A DNA stretch of 64,000 bases, taken from the NCBI GenBank assembly GCA_017437065.1, contig JAFSBX010000146.1:1-64000 (forward strand), given 5' to 3'. The stretch comes from Lachnospiraceae bacterium (GTDB lineage Bacteria; Bacillota; Clostridia; Lachnospirales; Lachnospiraceae). The position numbers and the translations under genes are program-made. This document shows positions 7,491-57,586 of the stretch, in pieces; the first letter of the stretch is position 1, and each line of letters begins with the position of its first letter. The notes beneath the pieces were generated by a model. The model ran no database searches. It was not told where the DNA came from and worked only from the letters and a program-made list of their open reading frames with translations.

Positions 7491-9323
7491 ATGCGTGATA
7501 AGAAAAATCGCAATAAAAATGTACCAAAACTGAATAAACACAAAATAAGCATGAGAAATATCAGTATCAGAATTAAGAGTATTTTTCCGATAGGACTTTT
7601 AGTTATATTATTGTTTGTATCCAGTGCCGTAGGGGTAATGAATATTAATAACATGATGAAAGTTGGTAAGGATATTTCAGAAAAATATAGTACAAATATG
7701 ATTCATATGCTACAGCTGTCTGCGAATTTTGAAACCATTCAAAAGACGTTGTATGCCCATTGTCTTACGGATGATTCACTGGAAAAAAAGAAGCTGACAG
7801 AGGAATATCAGAAGCTTTCCGAAAGTAATGCACAGATGATGAATGAACTGAGTGTGATACTGAAAGAATGTGAAGAAGAGGCGGCAGGAACTGAATTTGA
7901 GTCATTACAGATGATGGTAATGATTGATACATTTCTGAAATTTGAAAGTGATTATAGCAAATTTATATCTGTATACGATAAGACGATTGACCTAAGCAAC
8001 AGTGGAAAAAAGGAAGAAGCCGAAAAGATGGCAAATTCCACAATTTCACAGCTGGGAGAACAAATGACCGAAGAAATTACAAACATGGTTGCTGCCAATA
8101 AGGCAAGTATGGAGAATGCGGTAAAAATACAGGAAAGTACTTACAGTCAATCGTTAATGCTTGCTGTCTGTATTATAGTAGCAGGAATGATTGTGGCAGT
8201 GCTTGCAGTTGTATTAACCATTTTCGGAATTTTGGTTCCGTTAGGAAAAACTAACCGTCAGCTAAACAGAATTATTCGGGCAATCCAGCAGGGACAAGGA
8301 GATTTGACCGAAAGAGTAACAGACACCGGAAAGGATGAAATCAGCCAGTTGGCAAAAGGAATCAACCTTTTCATTGAGACATTGCAGGGAATTATGAAAA
8401 GGATTGTGGACAATTCCAACCGTTTGGATACCATTGTGTGTGATGTAAAGAGTAGTGTGTCAACTGCAAATAAGAGTTCAGAAGATATTTCAACGGTAAT
8501 GAGTGATTTGTCAGCCTTTATGGAAGAGGTTTCAGCAGGCACATCGGATGTAAACAAAAATGCAACGGATGTAGACCGGGAAATTAAAGAACTGGCGTCA
8601 GCATCGGAGAGTCTGCTTGCTTATGCGGAAGAAATGCAGGAGAGAGCTGTTGAGTTGGAAAGTACGGCGGTGGAGAATAAGCAGAATGCAAGTGGTGTAA
8701 TTAATGACATTCTTAGTACATTACGTGTTGCTATTGAAGACAGTAAGAGTATACACCGTGTAAATGAACTGACGGATGAAATCTTAAGCATTTCCGGTAA
8801 GACTAATTTGTTGGCATTAAATGCTTCTATTGAAGCGGCAAGGGCGGGAAGTGCAGGCAGAGGATTTGCAGTAGTTGCAGATGAAATCAGAATGCTTGCG
8901 GATTCCAGTCGCCAGACAGCAAGCAATATTCAGGAAATTAATGCTGCAGTAACTTCCGCCGTAAATGAATTGATTAAAAGTGCGGACGAAATGGTACGTT
9001 ATATTAATGAAAATATTCTGCCGGATTACGATGGTTTTGTAACCTCCGGCAAGCAATACAGTGCAGATGCATCCCATGTAAATGAAACCGTCAGTCGGTT
9101 TTTTACAATGGCTTCCAATCTGAAAAGTCTTGTAAAAGGTATTACAGAAGCAATAAAAGAAGTGACAGATGCCATTGATGATACCACAAATGACTTATCA
9201 GCGGCTGCTTTAAATACAAATCATCTTGCTCAGGATATCAGTAAGATTTCAGAAGAGATGGTAAGTAACAGCCAGGTGGCCGGTGATTTGATGACGGAGG
9301 CAAATGTATTTGTAAAATTATAA
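7491..9323 (+). CDS. Methyl-accepting chemotaxis protein, four-helix-bundle sensor
   Basis: Transmembrane chemoreceptor, 610 aa. It has a first membrane helix near residues 30-50, a helical extracellular sensor of about 170 residues, a second helix near 220-245, a HAMP linker, and a signalling domain with the CheA/CheW-binding hairpin tip [14 protein letters not shown] followed by [15 protein letters not shown]. It starts 10 nt after the GH30 stop with AAGGG about 8 nt upstream, so it is the last gene of the importer operon. Co-transcription suggests taxis towards the same sugar or towards its loaded binding protein (inference). A terminator follows at 9353. Confidence 0.9.
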
Positions 9324-9352
9324 AAAAGGAAGCTTCTAAATGATATTTTTTC

Positions 9353-9396
9353 ATCCCGCTATTCAAAGTGATTAGTTTGAGTAGTGGGATATTTTT
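9353..9396 (+). terminator. Intrinsic terminator after the chemoreceptor
   Basis: A 15-bp stem (ATCCCGCTATTCAAA with TTTGAGTAGTGGGAT, two G-U pairs) with an 8-nt loop is followed by ATTTTTG. It ends the araC-facing importer/GH30/chemoreceptor operon. Confidence 0.85.
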
Positions 9397-9407
9397 GTGT
9401 AATAGGG

Positions 9408-9717
9408 TTAGGGTGTCAAAAGGTGCTGTGGAAGGTTGTGTATGGCATGTTGCACAAAATTGTTTCACCCTTTGTTCCAAGTTACGGATATAAGATTTTG
9501 TAAATGTTCTGGGCAGGATGTTTGAAAACGGACGCAACCGGCTGAAATTCGCCATCCATGGCTCAGTTTCAGCCTTTCGTCAGCGTCGTGCTGACGAATT
9601 GCTGGATACCCTACAGAACATTAACAAAATCTAATATCCTGCACAAGTCACAAATGGCAAAACAATTTTGTGTAACATGCCAGTAGCAATTTTTGACAGC
9701 ACCTTTTGACACCCTAA
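9408..9717. mobile_element. 310-bp MITE-like inverted-repeat element
   Basis: The termini are perfect 22-nt inverted repeats beginning TTAGGGTGTCAAAAGG (9408-9429 and 9696-9717). Two more nested arm pairs lie inside: 9444-9465 with 9660-9681 (one mismatch) and 9486-9511 with 9614-9639 (two mismatches). A small hairpin, CGTCAGC/GCTGACG, sits near 9580-9597. The whole unit can fold into one long rod. It has no ORF, and both ends are preceded by TA when read inward, as IS630/Tc1-type miniature elements would be. Partial relatives occur at 12071 and 57551. A structured RNA is the alternative. Confidence 0.75.
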
Positions 9718-9878
9718 TCGCAGTAGGAAATTGCACGAGCCAAGTGGGGAGAAAAATACAGACTTATAATAAAAAAAAGTACCTTGTTGGTGTATGTTAA
9801 AGTGCTAAAATATGTTTTTAGATAAGGGAATAAAGTATACTGCGATGTTAATTGTAGTAAACATTTAAAGGAGGAAGT

Positions 9879-11966
9879 ATGTTTAAGGGTATAGTAAAAA
9901 GGTTAGGGAAAGTGATATGTATATCTGCGGGGGCGATGCTTATACTGGCAGGTTGCGGGAAGGATGCAGAAAGTACAAATAGTGGGGACGTGAGTCAAAA
10001 AGAGTCCGATGCAGAGGCAGTCATTCCGGCTGTGCCGTCAGGAGTTTCAATTACAAGAGACGGAGAGAATCTGGTGCTTTCGTGGACAGGCGATGAAAAT
10101 GCAAAGGGATATCGGATTTATCAGGGAAGCGGTCGTTTCAGCAATGATTATGAGGAAGTAACTGACAAGCCTGTAGAAGGAAATACATATGTAATTGAAG
10201 GAGCCGGATACGACTATTATAAAATTGCCGGGGTAAACGGTGACAAAGAATCCGAACTTTCGGAGGCAGTTTTCATGGAACAGGAAGTATTTGGAGAAAA
10301 TGTATATATTTACAGTCCCACAGACGATCCGAAAGAGGTAAATAAGGAACTGTTTTCGATGTATCTGAAGCAGGAAACTGCACAATTTGACAATCGCAGA
10401 TATGCGGTCATGTTTAAGCCGGGAGAATATTCTGAGGAAATAGAGGTAAATGTAGGCTTTTATATGGATGTGATGGGGCTGGGGCAGACACCGGTGGAAA
10501 CAACTCTTCAGAAGTTCCAGTGTACGGCACAGTGGCTGGGAGATGACAGCAACCACAATGCCACCTGTAATTTCTGGCGAGGTGTATCCAATCTGCAAAT
10601 TAACAGTGATGTAATGTGGGCGGTTTCTCAGGCTACATTTATGCGCCGTATGCAGATTAACGGAAATCTGGCATTGCATGATAATTACGGCTGGTCCAGC
10701 GGTGGTTTCTTATCGGATTCCGTAATTACCGGTCAGGTGGATTCCGGTTCTCAGCAGCAGTGGCTGTCAAGAAATTGTGACTGGAAAGTATGGGCAGGAG
10801 AAAACTGGAATATGGTGTTTGTTGGAATAGAGGAAGGAAAAGCTCCGACAAAGACTTGGCCGGTGGCGGCTTATACTGCAGTAGATAAAACACCGGTTGT
10901 TTCCGAGAAGCCATTTTTATTTTATGAGGATGGAAGCTACAAAGTATTTGTGCCGGAGTTGACAACAGAGACAGAAGGGATAACCTGGCAGAATGGAGTT
11001 CCGGGCAGCAGTATCTCATTAGATGAGTTTTATGTGGCACAGGCTAAGACAGATACGGCGGCAACAATGAACGAAGCATTGGCACAGGGCAAACATTTGC
11101 TTTTGACACCGGGAATTTACAAGCTGGAAGAAGCATTACAAATTTCAAATCCTGAAACAATTGTACTTGGAATCGGTTATGCAACATTAGAGTCCACCAA
11201 TGGAAATGCATGTATGACGGTAGCTGATGAAGAAGGCATCAGAATCGCAGGACTGTTGTTTGAAACGGGAGAAACAGAATCTCAGACCTTATTGCAGGTA
11301 GGAGAAGAGAAAAATGAAACAAGTCACAGTGAAAATCCGATTGTATTAAGCGATATGTTCTTCCGTGTAGGAGGTGCTTATAAAAATCCAACTGCAACAA
11401 AAAGCTGTGTTGTAATAAACAGTAATAACGTAATCGGAGATAATTTCTGGGTATGGAGGGCAGACCATGGAGATGGAGTGGCATGGGATACCAACACGGC
11501 ACCTAACGGAATTATTGTAAATGGTGATGATGTGACAATTTATGCCCTGATGGTAGAGCATTTTCAGGAATACCAGACAATTTGGAACGGAGAGCGAGGC
11601 AGCGTATATTTCTATCAGAGCGAGCTTCCGTATGATGTACCAAACCAGAGCGAGTGGCAGAGTCATGACGGAAAAATGAACGGATATGCTTCTTATTATG
11701 TAAATGAGAATGTCAGCGAGCATACAGCTTACGGTATAGGAATTTATTCATTCAACAGGGATGCCATTGTGGAAGAATACTGCGCAATGGAAGTACCGGA
11801 GGCAAATGGAATGAATCTGCATAATGTATGCAGTGTTATGATTACAGGAAATCCGGGGGTTAGTCATGTAATAAATTCGTATGGTTCTCCGGCATACTCG
11901 GCAGGAACAAGAAGTACGGTTATTGATTTTCAGAAAGAGCGTGCGAGGGCTGCAAAGAATCAGTAA
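9879..11966 (+). CDS. Secreted beta-helix lipoprotein, putative glycan-active enzyme
   Basis: Surface lipoprotein of 695 aa. The signal peptide ends in LAGC (Cys26), followed by a short linker, one fibronectin-III-like module (about 50-135, SGVSITRDGENLVLSW), then a long right-handed beta-helix. Motifs such as NFWRGVSNL, GWSSGGF, SGSQQQWLSRNCDW, WRADHGDG and VEHFQEYQTIWNG match what I remember of large secreted actinobacterial proteins annotated as coagulation factor 5/8 domain proteins. Some of those are glycan hydrolases, possibly of the alpha-1,3-glucanase type; I cannot confirm the family. The acidic WRADHGDG stretch is a candidate active site. GGAGG precedes the ATG, and a terminator at 12020 makes it monocistronic. 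Confidence 0.65.
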   Translation: MFKGIVKRLGKVICISAGAMLILAGCGKDAESTNSGDVSQKESDAEAVIPAVPSGVSITRDGENLVLSWTGDENAKGYRIYQGSGRFSNDYEEVTDKPVEGNTYVIEGAGYDYYKIAGVNGDKESELSEAVFMEQEVFGENVYIYSPTDDPKEVNKELFSMYLKQETAQFDNRRYAVMFKPGEYSEEIEVNVGFYMDVMGLGQTPVETTLQKFQCTAQWLGDDSNHNATCNFWRGVSNLQINSDVMWAVSQATFMRRMQINGNLALHDNYGWSSGGFLSDSVITGQVDSGSQQQWLSRNCDWKVWAGENWNMVFVGIEEGKAPTKTWPVAAYTAVDKTPVVSEKPFLFYEDGSYKVFVPELTTETEGITWQNGVPGSSISLDEFYVAQAKTDTAATMNEALAQGKHLLLTPGIYKLEEALQISNPETIVLGIGYATLESTNGNACMTVADEEGIRIAGLLFETGETESQTLLQVGEEKNETSHSENPIVLSDMFFRVGGAYKNPTATKSCVVINSNNVIGDNFWVWRADHGDGVAWDTNTAPNGIIVNGDDVTIYALMVEHFQEYQTIWNGERGSVYFYQSELPYDVPNQSEWQSHDGKMNGYASYYVNENVSEHTAYGIGIYSFNRDAIVEEYCAMEVPEANGMNLHNVCSVMITGNPGVSHVINSYGSPAYSAGTRSTVIDFQKERARAAKNQ

Positions 11967-12056: not shown

Positions 12057-12070
12057 ATGTAATAGGATGC

Positions 12071-12086
12071 GGGTGTCAAAAGGTGC
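12071..12086 (+). repeat. Solo terminus of the 310-bp repeat family
   Basis: GGGTGTCAAAAGGTGC is identical to 16 nt of the terminal repeat at 9408. The upstream GTAATAGG also matches the bases before the 9408 copy. No second arm is found nearby, so this is an end fragment or a degenerate copy. Confidence 0.65.
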
Positions 12087-56666: not shown

Positions 56667-57548
56667 TTGGAAAATGACATGGATAAACTCAGAATAGAAA
56701 AAATAAAGCTTATTACATCAATGTGTATATTCGGAACAATCGGAATTTTCGTGCGATACATCCCTTTGCCAAGCAGTGTTATTGCTTTTGCCAGAGGGCT
56801 TGTGGGCATGCTCTTTTTATTAGCGGTTGTTTTTATAAAAAAGACAGAAATATCTGTTGAGGATATCAAGAGAAATCTGTTATGGCTTATTTTATCAGGT
56901 ACTTGTCTGGGAATGAACTGGATATTATTATTTGAATCTTATCGGTTTACCTCCGTTGCGACATCTACATTGTGCTATTATCTGGCACCGATTATTGTAA
57001 TATTGGTTTCGCCGTTAATATTAAAAGAAAAACTGACAATACGAAAAGGGATATGCACTGTTGTGGCATTGAGCGGTATGGTTTTGGTTTCAGGTGTTTT
57101 ACAGACGGGTATGCCGGAGATAAATGAAATAAAAGGGATTCTTTTTGGTCTTGGAGCAGCAGTTTTGTATGCATGCATTATGTTAATCAATAAGAAAATA
57201 CAAGATATATCTGCATACGATAAAACGATAGTGCAACTTGGGATTTCCGCAGCTGTGATATTACCCTATTGTCTTCTGACAGAAGATGTGGCAGCATTGC
57301 CGTTTTCGGGGAAGGTTCTTTTTATGCTCCTTTTCGTGGGAATTTTGCATACAGGTGTTACATATTTTTTATATTTCGGCTCTATGGGACATTTGAAGGG
57401 ACAGACTGTGGCGATTATCAGTTATGTAGATCCGGTAGTGGCGGTTTTGATTTCCGTTTTTGTGCTGAGAGAGGGCATGGATATTTGGGGAATTATAGGA
57501 GCGGTACTGATTTTAGGGGCAGCACTGGTAAGTGAATTGAAGTCATAG
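56667..57548 (+). CDS. DMT/EamA-family exporter
   Basis: A 293-aa membrane protein with ten predicted helices in two EamA repeats (first ~1-140, second ~145-290; LSGTCLGMNWILLFESYRFTSVATSTLCYYLAPI is the first-half signature). Family members export amino acids or other small metabolites by proton exchange; the substrate is unknown. The frame opens at TTG 56667, which has AGGA 7 nt upstream; the ATG at 56679 lacks a good site, so a TTG start is plausible. The stop is two nucleotides before a fragment of the 310-bp repeat family. Confidence 0.85.
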   Translation: MENDMDKLRIEKIKLITSMCIFGTIGIFVRYIPLPSSVIAFARGLVGMLFLLAVVFIKKTEISVEDIKRNLLWLILSGTCLGMNWILLFESYRFTSVATSTLCYYLAPIIVILVSPLILKEKLTIRKGICTVVALSGMVLVSGVLQTGMPEINEIKGILFGLGAAVLYACIMLINKKIQDISAYDKTIVQLGISAAVILPYCLLTEDVAALPFSGKVLFMLLFVGILHTGVTYFLYFGSMGHLKGQTVAIISYVDPVVAVLISVFVLREGMDIWGIIGAVLILGAALVSELKS

Positions 57549-57550
57549 AA

Positions 57551-57586
57551 GTGTCGAAAGGTGCTGTGAAAGGTTGTGCAACAAAA
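57551..57586 (+). repeat. Fragment of the 310-bp repeat family at a gene breakpoint
   Basis: GTGTCGAAAGGTGCTGTG followed by AAAGGTTGTGCAACAAAAT aligns with the left end of the 9408 element (two substitutions and a short internal deletion). It lies exactly where the minus-strand response-regulator homology stops, so the insertion or its excision probably cut that gene. Confidence 0.7.

Follow-up and report, generated by a model that had tools for sequence, protein, structure and literature searches.

Bacterial MITEs such as Correia/NEMIS, RUP and REP/BIME are short and non-coding, are bounded by terminal inverted repeats, duplicate their target and occur in tens of copies. The element described here resembles them in each of these features, and differs from Correia/NEMIS, RUP and REP/BIME in that some 168 nt of its interior form an RNA-like core whose conserved loops look like protein-binding sites. 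That core is TwoAYGGAY (RF01731), an RNA family which is listed in a table of its discovery paper as a probable RNA, probably not cis-regulatory (PMC2864571), and for which a CsrA-binding role has already been proposed from a motif scan (PMC4333381). The CsrA site selected by SELEX, RUACARGGAUGU, has fully conserved ACA and GGA, the GGA lying within a hairpin loop (PMC4347634). A CsrB-like sRNA of B. subtilis is also mentioned there, and the idea of decoys in Firmicutes is therefore not new (PMC4347634). With the CsrA-binding decoy RNAs CsrB, CsrC and RsmX/Y/Z the element has in common the presence of GGA in hairpin loops, whereas it carries two sites per RNA, is present in many copies per genome and rides on a transposable carrier, and as a decoy it is putative. 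The Rfam 12 paper, the one paper found on CsrA together with MITEs, discusses plant MITEs that had been taken for microRNAs. In a literature search in which subscription journals are sparsely covered, no link was found between TwoAYGGAY or RF01731 and a mobile element, and nothing relevant by title was found on transposon-derived CsrA sponges or on MITEs in Lachnospiraceae. The locus is a MITE whose core is a catalogued RNA; the mobile-element link seems to be new, while the CsrA proposal is already in print.

A palindromic element with a TwoAYGGAY core

The window analyzed is a stretch of 64,000 nucleotides from the genome of a Lachnospiraceae bacterium (G000). A first-pass annotation had described a 310-bp palindrome at 9408-9717, and this was confirmed, with both arms and fold far beyond chance. 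The left rod arm (9408..9511, plus strand) and the right rod arm (9614..9717, minus strand), delimited by their complementarity, are 104 nt each and 80% complementary. The first 22 positions from the ends pair at 22/22, as had been claimed, and the inner arm pairs, given earlier as 21/22 and 24/26, were measured as 22/23 and 24/26 in near-agreement. Folding of positions 9400-9725 gave -165.9 kcal/mol compared to -82.0 +/- 4.7 kcal/mol for 100 shuffles (z = -18), and the opposite strand folded with z = -16. The extent required correction: once the terminal repeat of the family was used as a guide, the whole unit was found to be 312 bp (9407..9718, minus strand, that of the TwoAYGGAY core). Its left terminal inverted repeat (9407..9423, plus) has two mismatches to ATTCGGGTGTCAAAAGG and its right one (9702..9718, minus) a single mismatch, both located by pattern search. 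As stated earlier, the element is short and has no coding capacity, yet a mechanically listed ORF of 105 aa (9238-9555, minus) overlaps it. It is flanked by a methyl-accepting chemotaxis gene (7491-9323, plus) and an ORF of 695 aa with no Pfam match (9879-11966, plus), both on the strand opposite to the core.

RF01731 was the only Rfam family above threshold in the whole window, scoring 129.5 bits (cut-off 43) over the full model (1-168) at 9479..9646 on the minus strand. The likeness to TwoAYGGAY is one of full length, with two hairpins, a junction and a closing stem, but the window element is extended on either side by some 70 nt of paired arm and ends in the terminal repeats. Hairpin 2 (9551..9562, minus; GCCAUGGAUGGC) has a loop resembling a CsrA site, with GGA. 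Hairpin 1 (9576..9598, minus) has the loop CACGACG and differs from RF01731 in lacking GGA; the AYGGAY motif is present as AUGGAU in loop 2 and replaced by ACGAC in loop 1. With one GGA loop only, the window copy is at best a half-site. The annotation had offered a MITE and a selected RNA structure as alternatives; each was right in part, the RNA family being the core of the MITE.

The genome of the window contains 15 TwoAYGGAY copies over the Rfam cut-off and one fragment under it, and BLAST against this genome, with the window copy excluded, returned eleven matches of about 190-320 bases at 79-89% identity together with many shorter fragments. It is these near-full copies that bear out the earlier claim of a family. 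The partial relatives cited for it, at 12071 and 57551, do belong to the same family but are remnants of one end only, the first a solitary terminal repeat (12067..12083, plus) and the second a decayed left end (57548..57567, plus).

Terminal repeats, target duplication and dispersal

In a second genome (G176) nine copies could be aligned end to end, with common termini matching ATTCGGGTGTCAAAAGG with few mismatches and divergent sequence beyond. Within two mismatches, ATTCGGGTGTCAAAAGG was found at 21 sites in G000, 75 in G176 and 17 in G122, and at none in seven other genomes searched, two of the same genus among these; the reversed pattern, used as control, gave 0-2 sites per genome. A scan of named genomes for exact ATTCGGGTGTCAAAAGG recovered at least 111 stretches, and those listed were labelled as Lachnospiraceae or its genera (93), other Clostridia (7) or taxa outside Firmicutes (11). 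The last group comprised Muribaculum, Muribaculaceae, Gastranaerophilales, Chitinophaga, Sphingobacterium, Balneolales, Anaerolineaceae and Rhodohalobacter, and one of its records, from a Muribaculaceae bin (L320), contains a full unit with TwoAYGGAY. These records may represent misbinned contigs, chance or transfer.

Within the 111 listed loci, ATTCGGGTGTCAAAAGG bounded 57 paired units of 36-373 bp, 56 of which had full flanks. A test for a 9-bp duplication, performed first on 42 units (80 loci) and later on the 56 units of all 111 listed loci, gave a mean flank identity of 0.64 compared to 0.41 for swapped flanks. Flanks were identical at 8/9 positions or more in 18/56 units (3 exact), compared to 1.3% when swapped, and at lengths of 7, 8, 10 and 11 at most 1/56 units each showed a duplication, which is no signal. 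This locus set and the G176 copies overlap, as one genome stands in both. In the window, the left flank (9398..9406, TGTAATAGG) can be read, from the family-level 9-bp signal, as a degenerate target-site duplication, and it is identical to the right flank (9719..9727, CGCAGTAGG) at 6/9 positions; the TA duplication which had been suggested at the element ends was not borne out.

Units of 290-380 bp recovered by the terminal repeat alone, in a search blind to the core, carried RF01731 in 26/26 cases. RF01731 was present in 0/25 Rfam-scanned loci with only shorter ATTCGGGTGTCAAAAGG units, the scan covering all but five of the shorter units. Core-less units of some 36-250 bp with ATTCGGGTGTCAAAAGG at both ends occur as well, in G176 and in loci L306-L416, and some core-less units of the window's own genome resemble deletion derivatives of the 312-bp element.

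Comparison of occupied and empty sites gave one positive case. On contig C14 of G176 a unit has inserted into a second repeat (in the order TCTTATAGG, element, CCTTATAGG), and the empty counterpart of this site, CTTATAGG, occurs once in the host-repeat copies of L411, L356 and L314, which are 78-90% identical; the duplication obtained from this comparison is 8-9 bp. The host is a second repeat family, CTTATAGGAA...CTTTCACGC...CTATAAGA, seen in L080, L176, L314, L356 and L411. For the window copy no empty site was found, as a 4.5-kb query had no orthologous site in two genomes of the same genus; in both, this query matched the chemotaxis-receptor domain, in G031 also two TwoAYGGAY copies, and nothing else. 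At an orthologous site shared by L344 and L319, a full unit is present in one and a left-end remnant in the other, which indicates decay and not absence. Full-length copies, which the annotation had asked for, were found in other genomes, and among genomes with more than one copy the closest relative was in the same genome for 150/166 copies, compared to 5.4 expected. Plasmid and phage records gave no match to the 310-bp element at E 1e-5. That the window element is a dispersed palindromic MITE which has been mobile is near certain.

A transposase with the same termini was searched for, as the annotation had proposed, and none was found. No unit of 450-5000 bp which could be an autonomous relative with the same ends was present in the 111 listed loci of up to 8 kb, and no transposase was recognised by eye in the ORFs of nine terminal-repeat loci. 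The IS256 and ISLre2 (UPF0236) families, in which the duplication length is 8-9 bp, resemble the element in this respect and were considered as a possible source; however, when UPF0236 and IS256 transposases were checked in three genomes, the copies in G122 and G176 did not have paired ATTCGGGTGTCAAAAGG ends, and neither family was found in G000. One ATTCGGGTGTCAAAAGG-like site with three mismatches precedes an IS256-type fragment in G176 (L274), where it lies inside an ORF of 272 aa and has no partner. With no transposase found that has these ends, the element is here an orphan MITE.

Arms, GGA loops and CsrA

Arms were studied in a set of 142 copies from 28 of the 45 TwoAYGGAY-positive genomes of a family sample, consisting of 15 copies from the window's own genome and 127 others, with 14 listed others left out. 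Five copies with flanks shorter than 150 nt were left out of the count, leaving 137 copies from the 28 genomes. Pairing continued past the Rfam model (score >10) in 136/137, and the median arm pairing score was 30.6 compared to 1.0 when arms were exchanged between genomes (187 draws, maximum 25.8); exchange within a genome gave a median of 11.0 (143 draws, 95th percentile 44). Outside the window's own family, arm pairing was observed in 32/40 copies (20 genomes) compared to 9/142 swaps, and was absent in eight copies. The arms differ in sequence between genomes yet remain complementary, and the compensating changes that the annotation had asked about were found. The one copy of the 137 without arms, G168 C18:235-401 (L107), lies near a contig end and comes from the single TwoAYGGAY-positive genome in the family sample with no CsrA hit; it is possibly on a contaminating contig. 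Arms of some 190-250 nt, with 250 nt as the reach of the arm search, were found in eight copies of G066 (L170 among them), four of which share the outer ends TAGGGACGGATACC. These ends differ from the termini of the window family, so that the core is carried by elements with more than one type of end. Accordingly, the evidence for the ATTCGGG/9-bp rule covers G000, G176, G122 and the named loci and does not extend to every TwoAYGGAY element.

In alignment columns of the 137 copies, GGA was present in both loops of 103, in one loop of 27 and in neither of 7, and hence in at least one loop of 130/137; the usual substitute was CACGANG. The class-level copies fetched had at least one GGA loop in 40/40. 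In the window's own genome GGA was lost from at least one loop in 14/15 copies and from both in 2/15. Loops and junction were constant while stems changed in 28 family-sample genomes and in 20 genomes of other families, and the common loop form, ACANGGAUGU, matches the CsrA SELEX consensus RUACARGGAUGU (consensus from PMC4347634).

The family sample of 299 genomes contained TwoAYGGAY in 45 (E <=0.001), CsrA in 154 and both in 44. CsrA was therefore found in 44/45 positive genomes compared to 110/254 negative ones (Fisher 1.7e-13, kinship uncorrected). In a class sample of 391 genomes, TwoAYGGAY was present in 36, CsrA in 125 and both in 31, which gives CsrA in 31/36 positive compared to 94/355 negative genomes (Fisher 2e-12, kinship uncorrected). 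The two samples have six positive genomes in common. When matches over the Rfam cut-off only were counted, CsrA was found in 42/43 (family) and 23/27 (class). Outside the window's own family CsrA was found in 25/30 positive genomes, in 11 families. The genome searches used strict filters, and with no more than 9 (family) or 7 (class) candidates scored per genome the copy numbers are lower bounds and absences are no proof. TwoAYGGAY occurred with no CsrA hit in G168 in the family sample and in G472, G513, G552, G570 and G612 in the class sample; completeness was below 90% for G472, G513 and G552. The own-genome CsrA (87.3 bits) is encoded directly beside FliW and near FlaG. This co-occurrence of TwoAYGGAY with CsrA is new in this analysis.

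The reading we favor, with a probability of roughly 0.58, is that of a non-autonomous DNA transposon (MITE) whose cargo, the TwoAYGGAY RNA, would be expressed and bind CsrA as a transposable decoy. It builds on what was observed: the terminal repeats, the 9-bp duplications of related units, the dispersal of the element, a single site compared occupied and empty, the core matched by Rfam, and loops in which GGA is conserved. The element would be transcribed on the TwoAYGGAY strand (minus in the window), its arms would fold into a long rod presenting the two hairpins, and these could bind a CsrA dimer. Many copies together would then act as a decoy which lowers free CsrA, and the transposase moving the element would act in trans. 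A CsrA-decoy function of the element has about even odds. Speaking against it are the loss of GGA from copies of the window's own genome, the positive genomes with no CsrA hit, and the wobble, terminator, promoter and gene-orientation results given below. Similar TwoAYGGAY cores are present in other clostridial families, and a wider version of the proposal would be that transposable CsrA-decoy RNAs occur throughout the class, as a GGA-hairpin module carried by palindromic elements with varied arms and ends in many clostridial families. This would add that the module survives almost only alongside CsrA and that a sponge for a host regulator is spread by transposition; taken as a whole this extension is tentative and falls somewhat short of even odds.

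TwoAYGGAY, a curated RNA family, is the core of a mobile element, at least in Lachnospiraceae lineages with ATTCGGGTGTCAAAAGG, and this affects the interpretation of its covariation, its copy number and its 'Cis-reg' label. Should CsrA indeed bind these loops, gut bacteria would be receiving decoys for a global regulator by way of a mobile element, and the number of copies would act as an inherited setting for CsrA-controlled functions.

Covariation, expression signals and alternative explanations

The strongest alternative is an ordinary MITE with no present RNA function, in which the core is kept by template-switch correction or by a need for a DNA hairpin, and the Rfam entry is a transposon. 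In 33 cores, two-sided changes were observed at 38/39 pairs, with a covariation score of 0.731 compared to 0.205 after shuffling and no more than 0.234 with slid partners; the structure scored was itself obtained from this alignment. On its own strand, an RNA stem under selection is expected to tolerate G-U. In the core stems, G-U and A-C cells numbered 35 and 40 with one copy per genome and 170 and 145 with all 139 copies; on the reverse strand the corresponding counts were 37 and 35, and 202 and 120. As the copies are related, these wobble counts are not independent. With one copy per genome there were also many other non-pairing cells (168), which probably reflect noise in the alignment. 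An FMN riboswitch control (30 loci, same family) gave G-U 21 and A-C 2, and 27 and 18 on the reverse strand. The G-U/A-C ratio was 1.43 in the closing stem, 1.1 in the first 40 nt of the arm and 0.41 and 0.8 farther out. At a distance of 41-80 nt from the core, in the outer arms, A-C outnumbered G-U on the Rfam strand by 204 to 83, being ahead in 19 genomes with G-U ahead in 6 and 2 ties.

Strong covariation with no preference for G-U over A-C means that covariation alone is no evidence of an RNA. The earlier suggestion of a selected RNA structure holds insofar as the inner arms belong to a catalogued RNA, and is not supported by wobble preference as regards selection at the RNA level. Template switching in palindromes is a mechanism by which complementarity is restored. 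Taken most simply, the data point to DNA as the level at which complementarity is either restored, for example in this way, or needed; as a caution, long palindromes may covary with no selection on an RNA. The ordinary-MITE explanation is consistent with the core stems, which on either strand show no G-U preference beyond a modest excess, and with the excess of A-C in the outer arms. It also agrees with the expression signals. Terminator-like sites after the 3' arm were at background level (7/131 compared to 43/777), promoter-like sites around 133 copies showed no excess (46 into the RNA, 35 antisense, 55 in the outward control), and the gene on the 3' side was on the TwoAYGGAY strand in only 45/124 copies as judged from mechanical ORFs. 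Against it stand the loops and junction, which were constant while stems changed in the 28 family-sample and 20 other-family genomes, and the strong association with CsrA in two samples, six positive genomes being common to both. We consider this explanation rather unlikely, though the most serious of the competitors to a transposable CsrA decoy.

Terminator-like hairpins pointing at the element were found in 19 and 16 of 131 copies on its two sides, about twice the background of 43/777, which on both sides indicates insertion near gene ends.

Integron attC sites and REP hairpins are single-stranded DNA hairpins read by a recombinase, and the element could be another such hairpin, its loops and a conserved T-T mismatch serving as recognition points. 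The conservation of structure with little conservation of sequence and no wobble preference would fit, as would the recurrence of the T-T mismatch within TTAG/CTTA in the rod. But the 9-bp duplication test also included short core-less units bounded by ATTCGGGTGTCAAAAGG, so that the core is seemingly not needed for movement, and we regard such a role as improbable. Either side of the rod has TTAG...TCTTA in the closing stem of the core (A1 columns 14-28 with 149-163), and two T-T mismatches, spaced by roughly one turn of the helix, result from this.

A cis-regulatory leader, as implied by the Rfam type 'Cis-reg', is more improbable still. The label, which is the point in its favor, is not supported by gene orientation, as the downstream gene is on the same strand in no more than the 45/124 copies given above and both neighbors of the window copy are on the opposite strand, and the table of the discovery paper speaks against it (PMC2864571). 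Lastly, the IS630/Tc1-type MITE with TA duplication that the first-pass annotation had proposed, and which the outer arm bases TTA/TAA might recall, was rejected, since the duplication in the 56 units is 9 bp, with no signal at 7, 8, 10 or 11, and the occupied/empty site gives 8-9 bp.

Among the matches listed, nine pairs of TwoAYGGAY copies were separated by less than 500 bp. The six spacers read between paired copies showed no promoter that both could use. Seven of the pairs were divergent, with 5' ends facing, two were tandem and none convergent. Two divergent pairs are in G000 (C134 56141-/56497+; C124 52752-/53111+), and the others are in G037 (C123 25808-/26152+), G008 (C47 139778-/140187+; C33 53805-/54268+), G208 (C69 180277-/180638+) and G472 (C47 4850-/5123+). 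The tandem pairs are located on C36 of G166 and on C1 of G515, the latter below the cut-off.
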